Shown: positions 1,020 to 11,099 of the stretch, piece by piece
Layout: each line of letters begins with the position of its first letter
Numbering within the stretch: the stretch's first letter is position 1
Assembly: GCA_017308495.1 (NCBI GenBank)
Contig: JAFKES010000084.1
Span: forward strand, 1 to 35,114
Reading direction: 5' to 3'
Length of the DNA stretch: 35,114 nt
DNA from: Afipia sp.
Lineage (GTDB): Bacteria > Pseudomonadota > Alphaproteobacteria > Rhizobiales > Xanthobacteraceae
Notes under the pieces: generated by a model
The model's database searches: none
What the model was told of the DNA's origin: nothing
What the model saw: only the letters and a program-made list of their open reading frames with translations
Translations under genes and position numbers: made by a program

Positions 1020-1262
1020 GTGGGTGAACGTGTCGAGGCGCGTGACGAATGGCACGCCGGCGATATGGGGTGCGGCGAACTGGTGATGGTGCTTCGCCGC
1101 AAGCTCCGCGATATGCCGGGTGAAGTCCTGAAGGTCATCGCACTCGATCCGGCGGCGCCGATCGATCTCGCCGCGTGGTGCCGGATGACGAACAATGAGC
1201 TGCTCGAAGTGGACGTCGCCAATCACAGTTATTGGATTCGGTCGCGTACGAATTGGAGCTAG
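1020..1262 (+). CDS. TusA-like sulfur-carrier protein
   Basis: An 80-residue protein of the TusA/SirA family, small cytosolic proteins that carry sulfur as a cysteine persulfide between sulfurtransferases. The active-site cysteine is at residue 18 in 'GDMGCGEL'. The usual CPxP is replaced by CGEL, so the prolines are missing. A second cysteine (54) lies in 'DLAAWCRMTNNELL', a block shared with the TusA domain of the fusion at 4007. The GTG start at 1020 is chosen because a GGGGGAGG ribosome binding site sits about 5 bases upstream and the frame is closed by a stop at 972-974. The DsrE-like gene follows after 69 bp, and TusA-DsrE pairing is typical of sulfur-trafficking operons. The partner enzyme cannot be read from this gene alone. 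Confidence 0.85.
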   Translation: MGERVEARDEWHAGDMGCGELVMVLRRKLRDMPGEVLKVIALDPAAPIDLAAWCRMTNNELLEVDVANHSYWIRSRTNWS

Positions 1263-1331
1263 GCCAGGCAGGTCAGTGTGACCAGTTGATTTCGAACGCG
1301 GGGATACCCCGCAATATGAGGAGGGAAGAGA

Positions 1332-1694
1332 ATGGCGGGGAAATTCGTGATCAGCCTCACCTGCGCCAAGGAAGATACCGACAAGGCCACCGTGGCCTTC
1401 GTTGTCGCCAATGCCGCGGTCGCGTCCGACAAGGACACCGTGGTGTTCTTGTCGACAGAAGGCACGCGCCTCGGGGTCAAGGGTTATGCCGATGGTGTCC
1501 ACGAAGAAGGGTTCGCGCCGCTTAAGGATCTCATGACCAATTTCGCTGAAGCTGGCGGCAAGATCTACGTCTGCTCGCCCTGTTTCAAAAAGCGCGGACT
1601 CGACGACGGCAATTTGGTCCCCGGTGCGGTGATTGTCGGTGGCGCCAAGCTGGTCGAGTTCATGGGCGAGGGTAGCCCCAGCATTTGCTACTGA
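1332..1694 (+). CDS. DsrE/DsrF-like family protein
   Basis: A 120-residue soluble protein of the DsrE/F fold, whose members pass sulfane sulfur to and from TusA-type carriers. The N-terminal strand 'KFVISLTCAKED' and the segment 'DTVVFLSTEG' are typical of the fold. Cysteines are at 11, 81, 84 and 119; the 'YVCSPCFKKRG' block holds the CxxC-like pair 81/84, the likely sulfur-binding site. The ATG at 1332 follows a GAGGAGGGAAGAG ribosome binding site. It lies between a TusA-like gene and a membrane protein gene with short gaps, consistent with one transcript. Assignment to the broad family is firm. Whether it is a sulfurtransferase or only a carrier is inferred from context. Confidence 0.85.
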   Translation: MAGKFVISLTCAKEDTDKATVAFVVANAAVASDKDTVVFLSTEGTRLGVKGYADGVHEEGFAPLKDLMTNFAEAGGKIYVCSPCFKKRGLDDGNLVPGAVIVGGAKLVEFMGEGSPSICY

Positions 1695-1715
1695 CGCATT
1701 TTGGGGGAGGGCATC

Positions 1716-2276
1716 ATGCTTCCATGGCGGAGGATGGCGCTGCTGTTCGTCATCGGTGCGCTCGGCTATGCCGCGCTCAGCTATCTGACGTTCAAGATGC
1801 CGGCGACGCTGGCTGACGGCGAATTGTGCGGCTTCGTCGAGCAGGACTTCAACGCGTCCGGACAGTTCGTTCATGCGCCTGTCTCGGCGTGGTGGATCAG
1901 CTTCACCCGCCTGCAGGAGTACTGGACCGCGATCTCGGTCGGCCTGTCGGTCGCTTTCGTCGGCTTTGCTTTGATGGTCGGTCGCCGTGCCGGCGGCCGC
2001 ACGGCGGCGGGTGCGGCGATGGGCGGCGGCGTGCTGGCGCTGTCGGCCCTGTGCGTCAGTTGTCTGGCGCCGGCCCTGTCCGTCGTTGGTTTCGGCATCA
2101 TGGGAACATGGTTGGCCGGTGTGCCGAAATGGCTGATCGCGTTCAACACGCTGCTTTTGACCGGATGGGGCACGCTGTTCCTGTCGCGTCGCCTGTCCTC
2201 CTGTGCATTGCCTGCGACATCACAACCGGCGAACGCGGAACCTGCGCGCCATTCGCCGGAAGGCCGCTTCGCCTGA
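1716..2276 (+). CDS. Small membrane protein with CxxC pair, unknown function
   Basis: A 186-residue protein with about four predicted membrane segments: roughly residues 7-27, 70-92, 98-128 and 134-158. The third contains 'ALCVSCLAP' with cysteines 113 and 116. The start is placed at ATG 1716, which has GGGGAGG five bases upstream; a TTG at 1701 in the same frame has no such site. A pair of membrane-embedded cysteines followed by a glycine-rich helix recalls MerT/MerC-type transporters, but the similarity is too weak to name it. The hydrophilic tail (about residues 165-186) is probably cytoplasmic. It sits 21 bp after the DsrE-like gene and 55 bp before the secreted protein, so a role in moving a sulfur or thiol compound across the membrane is a reasonable guess only. 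Confidence 0.7.
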   Translation: MLPWRRMALLFVIGALGYAALSYLTFKMPATLADGELCGFVEQDFNASGQFVHAPVSAWWISFTRLQEYWTAISVGLSVAFVGFALMVGRRAGGRTAAGAAMGGGVLALSALCVSCLAPALSVVGFGIMGTWLAGVPKWLIAFNTLLLTGWGTLFLSRRLSSCALPATSQPANAEPARHSPEGRFA

Positions 2277-2331
2277 GAACACCGGAAAGGGTCGAGCGGA
2301 TCCGAGCCAATCACTCTGACGGGAGGATTCG

Positions 2332-3894
2332 ATGACACGTCGTGGATTGTGGAGTATTGCGACTGCAGCGGCTCTGCTGAGCGTTGTGCCGGGCGCATTC
2401 GCGGAGGACTATGCCAAGGTGTTACGCCCGGCGAAGCCCGGAATGCCGCTGGCCCATCCTATTGCGGAGAAGGACATCGCGCCGCCGCCGTTTTCCCTGA
2501 TCGCGGATCGGCCGGTGCGTCCGGCTTACGTGCCGGGACTTCCTGGCCTGATCGAAGGCAAGCCGGTGACAGACGATTTCGGCCGCAAGCCGCCGAAATT
2601 CGACGCCGTGTTCATCCGCCAGAGCCGGGTCGAGAACGGCGAGGTGGTGATCCCGCCGGGCGGCCTTGCCTATCACGAGGACACCTGGGGCGGCGAGGTC
2701 GCGTTGCGCGGCGAGCAAATCCCGGTGCTCGGGCGGCTGCCGACCTATGTCGATTACGACATGACGGTCGTGGTAAAGGAGAATATCACGATCCCGGCGG
2801 GGCAGAGCGTCGTCGTCGGCGGTACGGTCTATCAGTATTACGCGACAGTTGGGCACAACAAGACGGCCAACCACACCCTCCATGTGAAGACCATCGCCGG
2901 CACGGATTGGGAATGGGCATTCGGCTCGCCGGTGCTCTCCACCACGCAGACGGACTGGTGGAACGGTTTGCAATTCACCCAGCTCTATAATCAGGGCAAG
3001 GCGCGCGAAGCCACCGCCAAGCAGATCGTGTTCGACTGGCTGGCCGGCGTCCGGATGGATCGTATCGTGTTGGCCGACGACAAGGTGTTCGCGGGTCTCG
3101 CGGGTGCCGGTGACGAATGGAAGGCCGGTAGTCGCACGGTGAAGGTCGCATCCATCGATGCTGCGACGGGCACCGTCAATATCGAAGTTGTTGAGGATGG
3201 CAAAGTCGTCCTCGCCAAGACGCTCGGCCCGGTGCAGAACGAACTTCTGATCGAGGACACTGGCGCACGCAAAGCTCTGGTGTTCGAACATGGCGACGTG
3301 ATCGGTTTCCTCTCGCCCTGGCCGGAAGCTTTCAAGGATGGCAAGGCCAATCTGAAGATCTACGACAAGGCGTTCAGCCTGCGTTATGGTGACACCTATG
3401 CCGCCGACGCGCGCTTTGCAGTTTATCCGGTGGGGTGTCCAACCGGGCACAATTTCGGCTTCATGCTTGTCAACCGCGAGGAGATCAGGCTCAAGCCGGG
3501 GGCGTCGGTCGATGGGCCGGAAGGCTATTTCAAAGTCGCCGTCGATCGCATCGAGGGCGAGAAGGTGCTGGCCTGGCACATTGCCGACAGGCAGGGCAAC
3601 CGCTCGGCAAATCTCGGCGGCCCGACCATCACCAATGTCGACCTGGTGCTCGGGCAGGGCCGGGTGGCGGGCCAGGCGATCCTGAAGGATGTCGGCCGCC
3701 AGATGCTCACCCGAACCTATGACAACATGCAGGCCAATACCGCGTCGGGACCGACTGCCGTGGTAGCTGCGACGGCGGCACCCGCGCCGCACGCTGCGTC
3801 TTTCTCGCCCGGCCTGATCGCGGCGCTCGGCGTATTCGCGGCCGGCATCGGTGCGGTCGGCTACGAGATCGGTCGGCGCCGGGCCGGATCCTGA
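2332..3894 (+). CDS. Secreted, C-terminally membrane-anchored protein of unknown function
   Basis: A 520-residue protein I cannot assign to a family. It has a clear signal peptide with likely cleavage after 'PGAFA' (about residue 24), a long beta-rich region without membrane segments, an Ala/Pro linker near 475-492 and a single C-terminal hydrophobic helix (about 494-513) followed by 'GRRRAGS'. The bulk therefore sits in the periplasm, tethered to the inner membrane. The mature part has one cysteine, in 'VYPVGCPTGHNFG', and motifs such as 'YYATVGHNKTANHTLHV' and 'VLGQGRVAGQAIL'. The start at 2332 has GGGAGGA just upstream. It lies between the membrane protein gene and the TusA-MetE fusion (112 bp away), which ties it to the sulfur cluster. 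No catalytic signature is recognised. Confidence 0.8.
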   Translation: MTRRGLWSIATAAALLSVVPGAFAEDYAKVLRPAKPGMPLAHPIAEKDIAPPPFSLIADRPVRPAYVPGLPGLIEGKPVTDDFGRKPPKFDAVFIRQSRVENGEVVIPPGGLAYHEDTWGGEVALRGEQIPVLGRLPTYVDYDMTVVVKENITIPAGQSVVVGGTVYQYYATVGHNKTANHTLHVKTIAGTDWEWAFGSPVLSTTQTDWWNGLQFTQLYNQGKAREATAKQIVFDWLAGVRMDRIVLADDKVFAGLAGAGDEWKAGSRTVKVASIDAATGTVNIEVVEDGKVVLAKTLGPVQNELLIEDTGARKALVFEHGDVIGFLSPWPEAFKDGKANLKIYDKAFSLRYGDTYAADARFAVYPVGCPTGHNFGFMLVNREEIRLKPGASVDGPEGYFKVAVDRIEGEKVLAWHIADRQGNRSANLGGPTITNVDLVLGQGRVAGQAILKDVGRQMLTRTYDNMQANTASGPTAVVAATAAPAPHAASFSPGLIAALGVFAAGIGAVGYEIGRRRAGS

Positions 3895-4006
3895 AGGGGA
3901 TAGCGAGCACCGGACACAGAAGGCAGCGCGTGACATGCGATGATTTTCGTGTCGATCACGAGTCGAGATGGTGTTCGGCCTTGTTCGGGCCGATTGAGGA
4001 TGATGG

Positions 4007-5530
4007 ATGAATGCGGTGAACGATGAGACTTTTCAGCCGGACGTAAGTTTCGATGGTGGCGATCTTGACTGCGGCAACGGATTGCTGCTGCTGATCCGCA
4101 AGCATATCGATCCGCTGCCGCGGGGTGGCCTGCTGGAGATTCGCTCCACGGAAATCTCGGTCGATGAGGATCTGCCGGCTTGGTGCAGGCTTACCGGCAA
4201 CGAACTGGTGACTTGGTCGAAGGACGGCAAGCAGCGCAGGTTCCTAGTCTGCAAGGGCAGGCTCGAGGAACGTGGCAAGTCTGAAGCGCCAAAGGTCCCT
4301 GCGACACCCATGGCTACTGTCGTGTCCGACGCGGCGCTCTCGCCTCTGACGCGCCGGAAAGAGAGGGTGCCGGCGCCGTCCGTCCCGCCCCTTGCGGTGA
4401 TGGGGATCGGGAGCTGGCCACGGCCGCGCTGGATGATCGAGGCGATGCACGACTACGTACAGGGACGATTGGACGAGGCGTCGTTTCAGGAGACCGCCAA
4501 TGACGCCGTGCGGCTTGTCGCCGCCGCGCAGGAGCGCGCCGGCGTTGACGTCATGACTGATGGCGAGCAGCGCCGCGACAGTTACGCGAGCTTCGTCGCG
4601 ACGCGGCTCGACGGGTGCCAGCTGGTGCCGCTGATCGATCTGCTGCCGCTGGTCGATCATCCCGAGGAGTTCGAGGCGGAGCTGCGAGCGCTCGACGTTC
4701 CGGCCGGCGAGGTGCGGCATCCAGGCGTGTTCGGGCCGATCCGGCGTACGCGACCGATTGTCGGCCATGAGCTCGATTTCATGCGCGGCATCACCAGGAA
4801 GCCGATCAAGGTCGCCCTGCCGGGACCGTATCTGCTCACCCGGACCATGTGGATGGAGTGCATTTCGGAGCAGGTCTACGCATCGCGCGAGCAGATCGCC
4901 GGCGACATCGTCCGCGCGCTGCGCGAGGAAGTGATCGATCTGCTCGACGGCGGAGCCGCGCTGGTGCAGCTCGACGAGCCGGTGCTGTCCGAGGTGGTGT
5001 TCAGCGGCGCCAAGAACAAGCGCAGCTTCATGTGCGGCGCCTTGTCGGAATCGCTGGGGCCGGAACACGAACTGGCCTTTGCGCGCGACCTGATGAATGC
5101 GGTGGTCGATGGCCTGCCGCAGGAGCGTGTCGCGCTGCATGTCTGCCGTGGCAATTGGACGCCGGATGAAAGCGTCGCGCTTGCCGGCAGCTACGCGCCT
5201 CTTGTCGACACCCTCGCACAGATGCATGTCGGCGCCTATTTGCTGGAGATGTGCACGCCACGGGCTGGCGAGATAGAGGTCCTGCGTCAACTACCGGAGA
5301 ACGCTCGCATCGGCATCGGCGTCGTCAATCAGAAGCACCTCGACCCTGAGGCAGTTGATGACGTCGCGGCGAAGATTGGTCATGCCATCGCGCTGTTCGG
5401 GCGGGAGCGGTTGCTGCTGCATCCCGATTGCGGCTTTGCGACATTTGCTGACAATCCGATCTGCTCGGCGACATCTGCCGAGGCCAAGCTCGGCGTGATC
5501 GCCCGCGCCGCCGCCCGGTTCACGAACTGA
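4007..5530 (+). CDS. TusA domain fused to cobalamin-independent methionine synthase (MetE) core
   Basis: A 507-residue two-domain protein. Residues about 13-86 are a TusA-like domain with cysteine 22 in 'LDCGNG' (in place of CPxP) and cysteine 60 in 'DLPAWCRLTGNEL'. A Pro/Ala-rich linker (about 87-128) leads to a MetE C-terminal-type barrel beginning 'VMGIGSWPRP'. The zinc/thiol-activating ligands are all present: His378 and Cys380 in 'LHVCRGNW', Glu414 in 'LLEMC' and Cys475 in 'LHPDCGF'. The 'CRGN' form and the longer loop between Cys380 and Glu414 resemble YxjG/H-like and core-MetE proteins rather than the two-barrel E. coli MetE, whose N-terminal half is missing. The barrel should transfer a methyl group to a zinc-bound thiol. 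The methyl donor and the acceptor are unknown. GAGG precedes ATG 4007. It is the last gene of the sulfur cluster. Confidence 0.88.
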   Translation: MNAVNDETFQPDVSFDGGDLDCGNGLLLLIRKHIDPLPRGGLLEIRSTEISVDEDLPAWCRLTGNELVTWSKDGKQRRFLVCKGRLEERGKSEAPKVPATPMATVVSDAALSPLTRRKERVPAPSVPPLAVMGIGSWPRPRWMIEAMHDYVQGRLDEASFQETANDAVRLVAAAQERAGVDVMTDGEQRRDSYASFVATRLDGCQLVPLIDLLPLVDHPEEFEAELRALDVPAGEVRHPGVFGPIRRTRPIVGHELDFMRGITRKPIKVALPGPYLLTRTMWMECISEQVYASREQIAGDIVRALREEVIDLLDGGAALVQLDEPVLSEVVFSGAKNKRSFMCGALSESLGPEHELAFARDLMNAVVDGLPQERVALHVCRGNWTPDESVALAGSYAPLVDTLAQMHVGAYLLEMCTPRAGEIEVLRQLPENARIGIGVVNQKHLDPEAVDDVAAKIGHAIALFGRERLLLHPDCGFATFADNPICSATSAEAKLGVIARAAARFTN

Positions 5531-5787: not shown

Positions 5788-6876
5788 TTACTCGTCGGCG
5801 GGGCCGGCGGCCTGTTGTGGTTTGGTTTTCCCGCGCAACTCGCCGACGACGCCTTGCGGGAAGAAGTAGACGCTGGCGATGAACAGCAGGCCCAGCCACA
5901 AGAGCCAGCGGTCGGGGTGGAGAATGCTCGGCAGCAACGGAATTCCCGCCGTGCTTGCCGCTTCGGCCGCAACGCCCATCAGCTTCTGCAGATAGTTCTG
6001 GGCGGTGACCAGCAGGGCCGCGCCGATGATCGCGCCATACATGGTTCCCATGCCGCCGATGACCACGATCAGAAGGATGTCGATCATGATCGCGAATGAG
6101 AGCGATGTGTCCGGCCCGGCATAGCGCAGCCAGATGGCGTTCAGCATGCCCGCGCTGGCGGCGACCAGCGCCGCGACCACGTTGGCCACGGTGAGGTGGA
6201 TCACCGTGCGATAGCCGAGCGCCTCGGCCCGAAACCGGTTCTCCCGGATGGCCTGCAGCACCCGGCCGAACGGCGAGTTGACCACCCGCAGCAGCCCCAG
6301 CACCATCACAGCGCAACACGCGAAGATGATATAGTATGATAAAATCCGACCGTTCACCGCTATCCCGAAGAAATCCTTGATGAACACCGTGCCGGGGCGG
6401 AGAAGCTCGGGAAGCTGGAAGGTTCTGCCGTCTTCGCCTCCGGTCAGCCATGATAGCTGCGAGGCCATGACCAGGAATGCCGAGGCGACGGCCAGCGTGA
6501 TCATCGAGAAGAAGATGGTCTGCACGCGCATCGAGAACAGGCCGATCGCCAGCGCCAGCGCGACCGCCGCCGGCAGGCCGATGATCACGCCGACAGCCAT
6601 CGCGGGCCAGGTCGGCCCCAGGGTGTAGAGGGCGATGGCGATGGCATAGCTGCCGATGCCGTAGAACATCGTGTGGGCAAATGACACCGAGCCGGTATAG
6701 CCGAGCAGCAGGTCGTAAGACGCGGCCAGCGCGGCGAAGATGCAGATCTTGGCCGCTACGTTGATGGGCTTGGCTCCCGGAAACAGAATCGGCGTCAACA
6801 GCAGCGCGATAATGATCGCGATCAGGATGACGGACAGGACTATGCTGCGCGGTGGATCGCCCGAAAGTATTTTCAT
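5788..6876 (-). CDS. livM: Branched-chain amino acid-type ABC transporter permease LivM
   Basis: A 362-residue inner-membrane permease of the LivM family, one of the two channel subunits of a HAAT-type importer. It has many hydrophobic helices and the characteristic blocks 'LLLGYTGSVSFAHTMFYGIGSYA', 'VLQAIRENRFRAEALGY' and 'VIGGMGTMYGAIIGA', the last being the loop that contacts the ATPases. The start is ATG at 6876, overlapping the TGA of livH in an ATGA, so translation is coupled. It is the last gene of the five-gene operon. The C-terminal tail 'KTKPQQAAGPADE' is hydrophilic. The substrate cannot be inferred from the permease. Confidence 0.93.
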   Translation of the reverse strand: MKILSGDPPRSIVLSVILIAIIIALLLTPILFPGAKPINVAAKICIFAALAASYDLLLGYTGSVSFAHTMFYGIGSYAIAIALYTLGPTWPAMAVGVIIGLPAAVALALAIGLFSMRVQTIFFSMITLAVASAFLVMASQLSWLTGGEDGRTFQLPELLRPGTVFIKDFFGIAVNGRILSYYIIFACCAVMVLGLLRVVNSPFGRVLQAIRENRFRAEALGYRTVIHLTVANVVAALVAASAGMLNAIWLRYAGPDTSLSFAIMIDILLIVVIGGMGTMYGAIIGAALLVTAQNYLQKLMGVAAEAASTAGIPLLPSILHPDRWLLWLGLLFIASVYFFPQGVVGELRGKTKPQQAAGPADE

Positions 6877-7883
6877 CGGTTCACCACCGCGAACAGGCCG
6901 CGCGGCCGCCACATCAGGATCGCGACCATCAACAGGATGTTGGACATGAGAGCGAGCTTGGGAACGAGAAAACCGCCGTAGTTCGCCACCATGGCGACAA
7001 GGATGGAGCCGATGAAGCAGCCGCCGATCGATCCCAGGCCGCCGATGATGATGACGATGAAAATCAGGATCATCATGTCGGCGCCCATGCCACCATAAAT
7101 CTGCTCGCGATAGAGCGCCCACATCACGCCGCCCAGTCCGGCCAGCGCCGCGCCCACCATGAAGACGCCGAGGAACAGGCGGCGGATGCCGTATCCCAGC
7201 GCTTCTACCATCTCTCTGTTCTCGACTCCGGCCCGGATCAGAAGGCCGATCTTGGTGCGGTTGAGAACCGCGAAGATGGCGAAAAAGATCACAAGTCCGA
7301 TGGCCATGGCGAAAAGGCGATATTTCGCGATGGCGATGTCTCCGATGATGAAGGAGCCTCGCAGCGCTGTCGGTAGCGGGATGGGGATCTGCGTCGGCCC
7401 CCAGAACACGAACAGCAGTTGTTCGACCACGACGAGGCCGCCGGTGGTGATGAGAATCTGCTTCAGGTGATTGCCGTAAACCGGCAGGATCAGCACGCGC
7501 TCGAACACGGCGCCAAGCAGGGCCGCGGCTGCCATCGCCAGCAGTGCGGCCGGCGCCAGCGCGGCCAGATTGAGCCAGAGGGAATCGGCCTGCAGCCATA
7601 CGGCCATCGGGATCAGCACCAGCGTGGCGATATAGGCGCCGGCGGTGATGAAGGCTCCGTGGCCGAAGTTCAGGACATCCATCAGCCCGAAAACCAGGGT
7701 GAGGCCCGAGGCCATCATGAAGATCATCATGCCCATGGCGAGGCTCGCCACGGTGAGTGTGACCCAGGACGATGCCGAGCCGACCAGGGGAAGCATCAAA
7801 AGGCTGAGCGCCACCGGCAACAGCGCCGGAATGTAGTCTCTCGACTGACCGGGAAGCGGCTCGCTTTCAGTGATGTTGGTCAC
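6873..7883 (-). CDS. livH: Branched-chain amino acid-type ABC transporter permease LivH
   Basis: A 336-residue membrane permease of the LivH family. It shows 'SGLTLVFGLMDVLNFGHGAFITAGAYIA', the family's hallmark near the N-terminus, and the ATPase-contact region 'IRAGVENREMVEALGYGIRRLF', then 'GGLGSIGGCFIGSILVAMV'. The N-terminus carries an extra hydrophilic stretch of about 17 residues before the first helix. The start is GTG at 7883, overlapping the TGA of livF as GTGA, while its own TGA overlaps the ATG of livM. It should pair with LivM to form the translocation pore. Confidence 0.93.
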   Translation of the reverse strand: MTNITESEPLPGQSRDYIPALLPVALSLLMLPLVGSASSWVTLTVASLAMGMMIFMMASGLTLVFGLMDVLNFGHGAFITAGAYIATLVLIPMAVWLQADSLWLNLAALAPAALLAMAAAALLGAVFERVLILPVYGNHLKQILITTGGLVVVEQLLFVFWGPTQIPIPLPTALRGSFIIGDIAIAKYRLFAMAIGLVIFFAIFAVLNRTKIGLLIRAGVENREMVEALGYGIRRLFLGVFMVGAALAGLGGVMWALYREQIYGGMGADMMILIFIVIIIGGLGSIGGCFIGSILVAMVANYGGFLVPKLALMSNILLMVAILMWRPRGLFAVVNR

Positions 7884-8602
7884 GTATGCACCTCAAAGCT
7901 CAGTCCCAGCAGGCGTTCCTGCAGCGGCCGGTCGCTGACGAGTTCTGCCATCTGGCCGTGATGGACGATCTTCCCGTTGTCCATCACGGCGACAGCGTCG
8001 CCGATTTCCTTGGCCACGAAGACGTTTTGCTCGACCAGCAACGTGGTGACGCCCTGCCGCCTGATCTCGCGCAGACAATCCACAAGGGCGAGCACGATGG
8101 CGGGGGCGAGACCTTTGGTGGGTTCGTCGATCAGCAGAAGCTTGCGGGGCTCGACGATGGCCCGGGCGATGGCCAGCATCTGCTTCTGTCCGCCGGAGAG
8201 CGAGCCGGCCCGCGACAGCCAGAACTTCCGCAGCGCAGGAAAGAAGCCGAAAATCCATTGCAGCCTGTCGTCGTCGAGCGGTCCCGAACGCGCCGCGAGA
8301 ATGAGGTTCTCCTTGATCGTGAGATCGGAGAAGACGGCCATGTTTTCCGGGACGTAACCGACGCCGAGCGAGGCGATGGCGGGTGTGGTCAGGGTGTCGA
8401 TCCGTCGTGAATCCAGCGTGATTTGGCCGGAGGCGCAGCGCCAGAGGCCCATCACGGTTCGCAGCGTCGTGGTTTTGCCGGCCCCGTTGCGCCCAAGCAG
8501 CATGGTCACCTTGCCCGGCGGCACGTGAAGGTCCACGCCATGCAGGATGTGATAACGCCCGATATTGGTGTGGACATTGTCCAGTTGCAGCGTGCTCGTC
8601 AT
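7880..8602 (-). CDS. livF: ABC transporter ATP-binding protein LivF
   Basis: A 240-residue ATPase. Walker A is 'GRNGAGKTT', the signature 'LSGGQKQM', Walker B 'LLLIDEPTKGLAP' and the switch segment 'TLLVEQNV', the 'EPTKGLAP' form being typical of LivF/UrtE proteins. The start is ATG at 8602, forming an ATGA overlap with the end of livG. The frame stays open upstream of this point, but that part reads as the complement-frame shadow of livG. It drives import together with LivG. Confidence 0.93.
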   Translation of the reverse strand: MTSTLQLDNVHTNIGRYHILHGVDLHVPPGKVTMLLGRNGAGKTTTLRTVMGLWRCASGQITLDSRRIDTLTTPAIASLGVGYVPENMAVFSDLTIKENLILAARSGPLDDDRLQWIFGFFPALRKFWLSRAGSLSGGQKQMLAIARAIVEPRKLLLIDEPTKGLAPAIVLALVDCLREIRRQGVTTLLVEQNVFVAKEIGDAVAVMDNGKIVHHGQMAELVSDRPLQERLLGLSFEVHT

Positions 8603-9366
8603 GGGGCGCCCCGGTCCGGCGCCACGCCGAGATAGGCTTCCTGTACGATCGGCGAGGCGATGACGTCGGCCGGAGGACCGTCGGCGACGAGGCGGCCGTT
8701 GTGCAGAACGATGATGCGATCGGCCAGCGAGCGGACCACGTCCATCTTGTGCTCCACCAGCAGGATGATCTTGGAGCGATCGCCCTTCAGCTTTTCGATG
8801 AGTTTCAGCACCACCGGAACCTCGTCCACGCTCATGCCGGCAGTCGGTTCGTCGAACATGAAAACGTTCGGCGCCAGCGACATCATCAGCGCGACTTCCA
8901 GCTTGCGCTGGTCGCCGTGGGACAACGAGGCGGCCAGCGCCTCGCGCCGGCCCAGCAGCGATGTACTCTCCAGAACAGCGTCGGCCTTTTCGATCAGGTC
9001 TTTTCGCGCCGTCCATGGGCGCAGCATCTCGTAGTGGACGCCGGCCGCGGCCTGAACCGCAAGCCTGACATTCTCCGCCACCGACAGGTTCGGGAACAGG
9101 TTGGTGAGCTGGAAGGCCCGGCCGATGCCCGCGCGCGTGCGCATCGGCGCGGACATTTGGGTGATGTCGGCTTCATCGAGCAGCACCGTGCCCCGGGTGG
9201 GACGAAGCTGGCCGGAGATCAGATTGAAGTATGTTGTCTTTCCGGCGCCGTTGGGGCCGACAATGGCGGTCAGCTCCCCCGGATGGAACGTACAACTGAC
9301 GGAATCGACGGCCAAATGGCCGCCGAACCGAATGCTCAGATCGCGCGTTTCCAGCTTTCCAGCCAT
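8599..9366 (-). CDS. livG: ABC transporter ATP-binding protein LivG
   Basis: A 255-residue ATPase of the LivG family. It has Walker A 'GPNGAGKTT', the LivG-type segment 'GIGRAFQLTNLFPNLSVAENV', a signature region 'LSHGDQRKLEVAL' (LSHGDQR in place of LSGGQ, common in this family), Walker B 'NVFMFDEPTAGMS' and the H-loop histidine in 'LLVEHKMD'. The start is ATG 9366, 25 bp after the binding-protein gene. The last codons overlap the livF start as ATGA. Confidence 0.93.
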   Translation of the reverse strand: MAGKLETRDLSIRFGGHLAVDSVSCTFHPGELTAIVGPNGAGKTTYFNLISGQLRPTRGTVLLDEADITQMSAPMRTRAGIGRAFQLTNLFPNLSVAENVRLAVQAAAGVHYEMLRPWTARKDLIEKADAVLESTSLLGRREALAASLSHGDQRKLEVALMMSLAPNVFMFDEPTAGMSVDEVPVVLKLIEKLKGDRSKIILLVEHKMDVVRSLADRIIVLHNGRLVADGPPADVIASPIVQEAYLGVAPDRGAP

Positions 9367-9391
9367 GGAGGATGCCGACCGATAAAGCTGT

Positions 9392-10573
9392 CTATCGCTT
9401 GTTGCGGATGGGGATGTCCATGTCCTTGATCTGCAACTCGCGGACCAGCTCGTTGACGGCCCAAGGCACGTTGGGATCGATCTTCACCCGGAAGTGATAC
9501 ATGGATTGCAACGCCTGATGGTCTTCCTTGCGAAAAACCATCTTCCCTTTGGGGGTGTCGAATTCCATCCCCTCCATGGTGGCGATCAGCTTTTCCGTGT
9601 CGGTCGATTTGGCGTTCTTGACCGCGGTGATGATGGCGGAGGCCGCCGCAAAGCCGCCGGGCGTGAAGAAATCCGGGGGGGTCTTGTAGCGCTTGGTGTG
9701 CTCCGCGATCAGCCAGTCGTTGATCGGGTTTTTGGGAATGCCGTAATAATAATAGGTGGCTCCCTCCATCCCGGGCAGTCGCTTGAAGGCCACGAGATCC
9801 GCCAGCGGCGCGCCGCCGGTGGAGATTTCGATATTGTACCGCCCCGGATTCATGTCCTGCAATTTGGTCAGCGGATCGCCGCCGCCGGCCCAGATCACCC
9901 AGATCATTTTGCGGCCGGGCTTGTCTTTCAGTGCGTCGAACAGTCTTTGGCCGACGGCCGTGAAGTCCGTCGTCGAAGCCGGCACGTATTCCTCGGCGGC
10001 CAGCGTCGCCCCGGTCTTCGACAGTGCTTCCCTGAAGGCTGCGACGCCGTCCCGGCCGAACGCGTAATCCTGCGCCAGCGTCGCCACGGTCACTCCCGGC
10101 TTGCCGATCGCAACCGCGTTCGAGATGGCATCCTGCGAGGAGTTGCGGCCGGTGCGGAAGATGTAGCGATTCCACTTTTCGCCGGTGATCGAATCCGCGA
10201 CCGCCGGCTCGACGATCAGGATTTTCTTGTTTTCTTCCGCGACGGGCAGCATCGCCAGCGCGGCGGCGGATGATGTGGTGCCGATGGCGAAATCGACCTT
10301 GTCATCCTGATAGGCCTCGGCGAGAGCGGCTTTGGCCAAGTCCGGCTTGCCCTGATCGTCCTTGGTGATCAGCACGATCTTGCGGCCGTCCACCATCATC
10401 GTATTGTTGGTGAGATATTCGAGGCCCAGTCTCACGCCGGCCTCGGTCTGCCTTGCATAGGATTCCAGCGGCCCTGTTTTGCCGTGAATGAGGGCGATCT
10501 TCAGATCATCGGCCCAACTTGCCGACGAAATCATGCTCGCTGCAAGACAGCAGGTCGCGAGTAGCTTCTTCAT
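9392..10573 (-). CDS. HAAT-type ABC transporter substrate-binding protein
   Basis: A 393-residue periplasmic binding protein of the branched-chain amino acid (Leu/Ile/Val-binding) superfamily. The signal peptide 'MKKLLATCCLAASM..SASWA' is likely cleaved near residue 21. The mature part opens 'DDLKIALIHGKTGPLESYARQTEAGVRLGLEYL', typical of the Peripla_BP_6 domain. It lacks the acidic and glycine pattern that would name a specific ligand; amino acids, amides, urea or aromatic acids are all handled by relatives. The ATG at 10573 follows AGGAGGAAACGG in the minus strand, a strong ribosome binding site. It is the first gene of the importer operon, divergent from the LOG gene. Confidence 0.92.
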   Translation of the reverse strand: MKKLLATCCLAASMISSASWADDLKIALIHGKTGPLESYARQTEAGVRLGLEYLTNNTMMVDGRKIVLITKDDQGKPDLAKAALAEAYQDDKVDFAIGTTSSAAALAMLPVAEENKKILIVEPAVADSITGEKWNRYIFRTGRNSSQDAISNAVAIGKPGVTVATLAQDYAFGRDGVAAFREALSKTGATLAAEEYVPASTTDFTAVGQRLFDALKDKPGRKMIWVIWAGGGDPLTKLQDMNPGRYNIEISTGGAPLADLVAFKRLPGMEGATYYYYGIPKNPINDWLIAEHTKRYKTPPDFFTPGGFAAASAIITAVKNAKSTDTEKLIATMEGMEFDTPKGKMVFRKEDHQALQSMYHFRVKIDPNVPWAVNELVRELQIKDMDIPIRNKR

Positions 10574-11099
10574 TCCGTTTCCTCCTGGTTCGTCCTCTTG
10601 AAGAATGAGGCTCGTCGTTTCTCGCCGGGGGGCTTCGGCCGCCAAATGGCTACCATCAGTCGCCGCCCCCGGGGCGCTGGTTTGCTCTGCGGGACGGCAA
10701 ATCGCTTGCGCCGATCCCGGTTCGAATGAATATCCCCTCCGGCCGCGGAAGCTGGGTTCGCCATCCTGCCGCGATGGGTGCCCGCCTTTGTGGCCGTTGT
10801 CTTTGCGGGGCGGTCTTGCGCCCACAATTTTCCCCGCCAAGGCTGAATCCCTATCAGAGGCAAGTGCGTATACGAGTGCACAGCAGAAGAAAATCCGCAA
10901 TAGGTATCCTCTGCCTCCGGAGGGGGAATGCCCATTCGATTGTGGTTTGCAATTTATTGCTGGGATGGAGCCACGGAAGATTCTGTCATAAAGGCGTTAT
11001 GGCCGGATCCGGGCCATAAGCGGCGCGGCCGTCGTGTGGCGGTGGGGCCAGCAGCGATGTGTTATAAGGCGTGTCGCCTGTGCCGGCCCCGGAGACATC
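10574..11099. promoter_or_regulatory. Divergent intergenic region between importer operon and LOG gene
   Basis: 526 bp without a convincing gene. It must hold the promoters of the importer operon (leftward) and of the LOG gene (rightward). The left half is GC-rich (a CGCCCC-C-GGGGCG palindrome at 10664-10676); the right half is richer in AT around 10860-10960. A perfect inverted repeat is listed separately at 10997-11019. I could not place -35/-10 boxes with confidence; a TATAAG at 11063-11068 is a weak -10 candidate for the LOG gene. Confidence 0.4.
10997..11019. repeat. 8-bp perfect inverted repeat, possible operator
   Basis: TTATGGCC (10997-11004) and GGCCATAA (11012-11019) are perfect complements around a 7-base spacer that contains a BamHI-like GGATCC. 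The dyad lies about 80 bp before the ATG of the LOG gene, in the shared intergenic region. There is no U-tract, so an operator is more likely than a terminator. The binding protein is unknown. Confidence 0.45.

Follow-up and report, generated by a model that had tools for sequence, protein, structure and literature searches.

Near its start, the stretch of DNA analysed here (the window, 35,114 nucleotides in full) carries a run of forward-strand genes, hereafter the cassette, that ends in an open reading frame joining a TusA-like carrier domain to a MetE-type barrel (Table 1). A first-pass annotation had singled out this last gene and had described it as an N-terminal TusA domain, with carrier cysteines at residues 22 and 60, tethered through a Pro/Ala linker to a barrel that retains all four zinc-site residues of MetE. 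The fusion exists as described: the cysteines and the zinc-site residues lie at the positions given, and, as the same layout recurs in relatives, the gene is not an artefact of assembly or reading frame.

Table 1. Genes of the cassette and parts of the fusion protein, with positions in the window.
Feature	Position	Strand	Basis
Free TusA-like carrier, 80 aa, GCGEL in place of CPxP	1020..1262	+	PF01206, 36.3 bits, above cut-off
DsrE-like protein, 120 aa, motif VCSPCFKKR	1332..1694	+	PF02635, 58.1 bits
Small hydrophobic protein, probably membrane-embedded (judged by eye), with conserved C-x-x-C	1734..2276	+	No known family
520-aa protein, probably exported (judged by eye), with hydrophobic C-terminal tail	2332..3894	+	No known family
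TusA-MetE fusion protein, 507 aa, ATG start	4007..5530	+	ORF, Pfam, 28-row alignment
TusA domain of fusion, residues 13-84	4043..4258	+	Pfam, TusA structures, alignment
Cys22 codon	4070-4072	+	TusA domain of fusion
Cys60 codon	4184-4186	+	TusA domain of fusion
Variable Pro/Ala-containing linker of fusion, residues about 85-130	4259..4396	+	Alignment
MetE-type barrel of fusion, zinc ligands His378, Cys380, Glu414, Cys475	4397..5527	+	PF01717, alignment

The domain search that the same annotation had proposed, with PF01206 and PF01717, gave a clear answer for the barrel and a borderline one for the carrier. In Pfam, the barrel matched Meth_synt_2 (PF01717) at 92.4 bits, well above the cut-off of 21, whereas residues 27-83 matched TusA (PF01206) at 25.0 bits alone, under the cut-off of 28.6, and at 28.7 bits with neighbours in frame. 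Two solved TusA structures, 1dcj and 3lvj, align to residues 9-84 (E-values of 7.7e-4 and 7.9e-4), and up to an E-value of 0.1 Pfam returned no family for the fusion besides the MetE-type and TusA ones. The CPxP signature of TusA is replaced by CGNG in the fusion; CG likewise occurs in the free TusA-like protein of the cassette, and the ordinary TusA of the genome has CPLP.

Conservation was examined in an alignment of 28 fusion rows, including two nearly identical Paracoccus rows, and seven unfused relatives, namely the genome's own MetE and six others. Two of the fusion rows end at a contig edge before the TusA domain, leaving 26 that hold the N terminus. The four ligands of the zinc, a metal predicted here from the sequence, are invariant in all 28 fusion rows, and Cys22, which is the first-helix carrier cysteine, and Cys60 are invariant in all 26 rows in which they could be seen. 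Functional positions for zinc and homocysteine in E. coli MetE were taken from section 11 of PMC7857596, and those for homocysteine are also kept: Ser136 in 27 of the 27 rows with this region, Glu187 in 28/28, and Asp323 in 27/28 (Asn in L008). Three further barrel cysteines, Cys204, Cys285 and Cys343, are present in every fusion row, but all seven unfused relatives lack them. Between the two domains, the linker varies from 35 to 50 residues and consists of 33-63% Pro plus Ala over the 26 intact rows, in agreement with the Pro/Ala linker first described. Over 18 rows, only 3 of its 41 positions are invariant, while the TusA domain has 42 invariant positions out of 72 and the barrel 166 out of 382. 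A flexible tether between two conserved domains suggests that the domains work on each other. Among the matches listed, other fusions are at least 62% identical to the window's protein and unfused relatives at most 32%, so that, judged by identity, the fusions appear to form a group of their own.

The gene block and its distribution

How widespread the fusion might be was a question already posed by the first-pass annotation, and a survey of genomes found it recurring, patchily, in alpha- and betaproteobacteria, a span that it reached by descent or by transfer. It is present in 13 of 198 genomes drawn from the window's family, in 10 of 268 genomes from the family of Pigmentiphaga humi (the TusA part of one, G671, being lost at a contig end), at five loci of Paraburkholderia and betaproteobacterial MAGs (L007 is from the same genome as G040, and L008 is cut N-terminally), and on three Paracoccus plasmid records from two Paracoccus species. 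Its patchiness is evident from a draw across the phylum, in which 1 of 398 genomes, the window's own, carried it.

The surroundings of the fusion were compared at 27 loci (P. versutus is not counted beside P. ferrooxidans), with gene calls in unannotated loci coming from a custom codon-usage script. Sequence upstream of the fusion is available at 24 of these; L008, L065 and L067 run into contig ends, with part of the 520-aa gene still visible in L065. TusA and DsrE genes lie upstream of the fusion at all 24 (TusA only partly matched in L005 and L043), and the small hydrophobic and 520-aa proteins are encoded at 20, being missing in L005, L006, L038 and L042. Because the genes flanking this block differ between lineages, the block itself is the unit. 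The first-pass annotation had treated the fusion as a single gene; the fusion is real, but the conserved cassette to which it belongs had been missed.

Among the smaller members of the block, all 10 aligned sequences of the DsrE-like protein keep Cys81 and Cys84, and in the small hydrophobic protein, for which an alternative start at TTG 1701 is possible, both cysteines of the C-x-x-C (C107 and C110) are conserved without exception in 11 sequences. No Pfam family matches the small hydrophobic protein above cut-off; a possible likeness to MerT found no support in Pfam. The protein is possibly a transporter for a thiol- or selenol-bound species. For the 520-aa protein, no Pfam or NCBIfam family was found apart from stray single-member Pfam matches, and PDB profile searches gave no credible relative (E-values of 0.12 or worse), so no function is proposed for it from homology. 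It occurs in 11 of the 198 genomes from the window's family, all 11 of which also carry the fusion, and its family awaits a functional assignment.

At four of the 24 loci (L005, L007, L035 and L039), a three-gene PhnDEC-type importer is inserted between the front genes and the fusion. In L007, its permease and ATPase score above the phosphonate equivalog cut-offs, and its binding protein scores above the cut-off of the phosphate/phosphite/phosphonate subfamily (149 against 112) but below that of the PhnD equivalog (168 against 261) and far below that of a putative selenate-binding model (76 against 250). The substrate of this importer could be a selenium oxyanion or an organoselenium compound.

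Downstream, the window's cassette is adjoined by a branched-chain-amino-acid-type ABC transporter set on the reverse strand (5788-10900), which lies outside the conserved block. Transporter genes of a similar type are found near the block at some loci; as a partner of the cassette this operon was rejected, the block having other flanking genes in relatives. A DUF2478 protein, of a family known from molybdate transport loci, is encoded at the contig start (19-432). Between positions 400 and 5900, a promoter scan gave a single promoter-like site, no more than chance would produce, and a terminator scan gave 8 candidate sites where shuffled sequence averaged 3.8; neither result is used as evidence.

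Association with selenium genes

At a few loci the fusion is accompanied by genes of selenium metabolism. In Paracoccus ferrooxidans, the fusion is followed after 77 bp by a co-directional selA and then by trxB. About 8 kb separate the cassette from selB on its upstream side, and a gene for a SufS-type cysteine desulfurase is divergent from the cassette; the gene order on the P. versutus plasmid is the same. In genome G069, according to our own gene calls, the next gene after the fusion, at a distance of 127 bp and co-directional, is selD (438.5 bits), with selB, selA and fdhE within 9 kb. Such neighbours occur in two lineages only (L031 and L033) among the 27 loci compared, and the other loci, the window included, gave no selA, selB or selD match. 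The chance of two co-directional sel neighbours is about 4e-5 by a rough, post hoc estimate that assumes 4,000 genes, three sel genes and 25 loci.

After this adjacency had been noticed, the co-occurrence of the fusion with SelD was tested across genomes. In the draw of 198 genomes from the window's family, SelD is present in all 13 genomes with the fusion and in 76 of the 185 others (p = 2e-5), although the fusion genomes are related to one another, so that this overall value overstates their independence and the p-values given here are to be read as guides. The association is also seen within genera: in genus g1, SelD occurs in 4 of 12 genomes and the fusion in three, all of them SelD-positive (p = 0.018), and for the four SelD-variable genera combined the product is about 0.001, counting only the members listed. 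As a further control, family genomes in which the family search, at its threshold, found only unfused relatives hold SelD in 16 of 31 cases, against 13 of 13 (p = 0.0015). SelA behaves similarly, being found in 12 of the 13 fusion genomes and 68 of the 185 others; the single miss is G116, which is 72% complete, and the match in the window's own genome is partial and under cut-off (87.5 bits), which leaves 11 of 13 over it.

Beyond the window's family, SelD was found in the genomes of L004, L005, L006 and L008. All ten fusion genomes of the Pigmentiphaga family (that of L004 among them) carry SelD, which says little because SelD is so common there (214 of 268 genomes overall; p = 0.10). The fusion was found only together with SelD, in 13 of 13 genomes of the family draw, 10 of 10 of the Pigmentiphaga family, and L005, L006 and L008, in counts that leave Paracoccus chromosomes aside and include two sequences, G671 and L008, whose TusA part is lost at a contig end. 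A planctomycete locus, L009, that encodes a distant relative and not a TusA-MetE fusion comes from a genome without SelD. The selD matches in the genomes of L005 and L008 (G585 and G588) contain an in-frame TGA, and SelD itself may therefore be a selenoprotein there.

The main competitor to selenium as the element handled by the cassette is sulfur. The barrel might act on a methylated sulfur compound such as methanethiol, dimethyl sulfide or a sulfonium, with TusA carrying the freed sulfur, and the sel genes would then be a by-product of a lifestyle built on formate and selenium-dependent formate dehydrogenase. TusA and DsrE proteins are, after all, best known as sulfur carriers; the cassette is carried by two Paracoccus species; the fusion occurs in bacterium 62-47, whose record name, SCNpilot, we take to mean a thiocyanate reactor; and in L033 fdhE lies near selA and selB. 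The selenium link could be an indirect one through selenium-dependent formate dehydrogenase. Against this stand the positions of selD and selA directly 3' of the fusion in two lineages and the behaviour of soxB, which was used as a control and shows no association with the fusion (it is present in 7 of the 13 genomes that carry the fusion and in 118 of the 185 that do not; p = 0.56). The soxB counts led us to reject sulfur oxidation as the role of the cassette, and we regard the wider sulfur reading as unlikely. Given the sel neighbours in two lineages, the tracking with SelD and SelA, and the failure of soxB to track, selenium is the likelier element, and the cassette probably serves it.

A candidate role for the cassette

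The first-pass annotation had envisaged methyl transfer combined with a chalcogen carrier. The invariant catalytic and carrier residues fit this pairing, with the amendment that the chalcogen is more likely selenium than the sulfur originally assumed. The mechanism that we put forward, tentatively and with slightly less than even confidence, is one of demethylation and relay, in which the cassette (1020-5530) would supply selenium to the SelD/SelA pathway. Uptake of a selenium compound would fall to the exported protein and the membrane protein, joined in some genomes by the PhnDEC-type importer. In the cytoplasm, a methylated selenium compound would give up a methyl group at the zinc barrel, and a thiol would accept it. 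Homocysteine is the most likely acceptor, since the residues that bind it are retained; donor, acceptor and direction are all conjectural, with methanogen precedents (see below) backing the reaction and its direction. The products would be methionine and a demethylated selenium species. Cys22 on the tethered TusA domain may then capture the selenium, possibly with the fusion-specific barrel cysteines as intermediates, and the free TusA-like protein and the DsrE-like protein could hand it on in the direction of SelD. For a thiolate to demethylate a neutral methyl selenide is chemically demanding when no corrinoid takes part, and a selenonium donor would be easier. The same activity might alternatively serve repair: selenide is reported to become methylated without an enzyme (PMC3511371; PMC10418091), and cells may therefore need to recover it from the methylated form.

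The barrel might instead run in the opposite direction and methylate selenide or selenohomocysteine, to give methylselenol or selenomethionine for detoxification or storage. The same residues would serve both directions, and an enzyme of a different family, ClMlp2, is described as methylating selenide in an assay (PMC10418091). The sel neighbours, however, are selA and selD, which are genes of assimilation, four of the 24 cassettes include an importer, and nothing among the cassette genes was recognisable as serving export or resistance. We consider methylation a decidedly unlikely account.

Slightly less probable still is that the protein is a core methionine synthase that converts homocysteine to methionine and has the TusA domain as an accessory part. 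The retained zinc and homocysteine residues are those expected of such an enzyme, and NCBIfam methionine synthase models do match the protein, with a best E-value of 7.7e-45, but all of their scores fall far under the cut-offs (153.5 bits against 406 for the best) and a scan of cassette proteins revealed no DUF1852 (MesX). A plain methionine synthase, moreover, would leave the tracking with SelD unexplained. The genome encodes both a full-length MetE (an open frame of 806 aa) and another core MetE (363 aa) elsewhere, which argues against a plain methionine synthase, and this reading was accordingly set aside as first choice.

Finally, that the barrel is no methyltransferase, its zinc site instead binding a thiol or selenol, either to transfer an alkyl group or to store chalcogen, is very improbable given that MetE's homocysteine-binding residues are kept, even though zinc-site relatives of MetE that move other alkyl groups exist (epoxyalkane:coenzyme M transferase is one) and the three extra cysteines set the 28 fusion rows apart from the seven unfused relatives.

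Comparison with known systems

The fusion shares its barrel family, zinc ligands and homocysteine-binding residues with the core methionine synthases (MesA-MesD; PMC7857596) and with the C-terminal barrel of MetE, and it differs from them in its TusA domain, its three invariant cysteines, its selenium-linked cassette and its distance below the NCBIfam cut-offs. Among the open-access titles and abstract openings listed as matches, none described a TusA-MetE fusion, a result that is no proof of absence, and such a fusion is not mentioned in the portions of PMC9312934 and PMC13188914 that were covered. Should the demethylation and relay mechanism hold, the cassette might amount to a corrinoid-free methyl-selenium demethylase fused to its own carrier, with direct transfer of selenium, a TusA-DsrE relay to SelD that avoids free toxic selenide, and dedicated uptake by two undescribed protein families; in this full form we think the proposal doubtful. 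The cassette offers a concrete, testable candidate that brings together two functionally uncharacterised protein families, a pair of carriers and a methyltransferase tethered to a carrier.

An association of TusA- and DsrE-like domains with selenium has a precedent in YedF, a selenium-associated protein that is described as combining TusA/SirA-like and DsrE-like domains (PMC5322559). The cassette likewise links TusA-like and DsrE-like proteins to SelD, but it encodes them as separate genes, has CG and CSPC where YedF has CPXP and CGXC, and adds the methyltransferase fusion.

Methyltransferases tied to selenium use are also found in the Type I mlp clusters of anaerobes, which a preprint links to methyl-selenide metabolism and one of whose methyltransferases is reported to methylate selenide from methylcobalamin (PMC10418091). 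Demethylation of methyl selenide has been proposed for Type I mlp and SdmABC, as it is here, but those systems are described as relying on an SCMT-family methyltransferase and a corrinoid protein, whereas the fusion has a MetE-type barrel, and Pfam found no corrinoid domain in the window's cassette proteins. The hosts of the cassette include aerobes, while Type I mlp and SdmABC are systems of anaerobes. If the demethylation mechanism is true, the cassette would add another enzyme family to the corrinoid systems with which anaerobes use methylated selenium.

The canonical TusA-TusD relay, which serves tRNA thiolation, shares with the cassette the position of the carrier cysteine and a DsrE-like partner; the cassette differs in being an extra set beside the ordinary TusA of the genome and in tracking with SelD. 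In Methanococcus maripaludis, transcripts of TusAD are reported to rise by 4.5-4.6 log2-fold under selenium depletion, together with the operon of a probable methyl-selenide Sdm system, and the authors state that a greater demand for thiolated tRNA is not obvious under these conditions (PMC11097638). A selenium relay of the kind proposed for the cassette would fit this rise of TusA and TusD in selenium-depleted cells.
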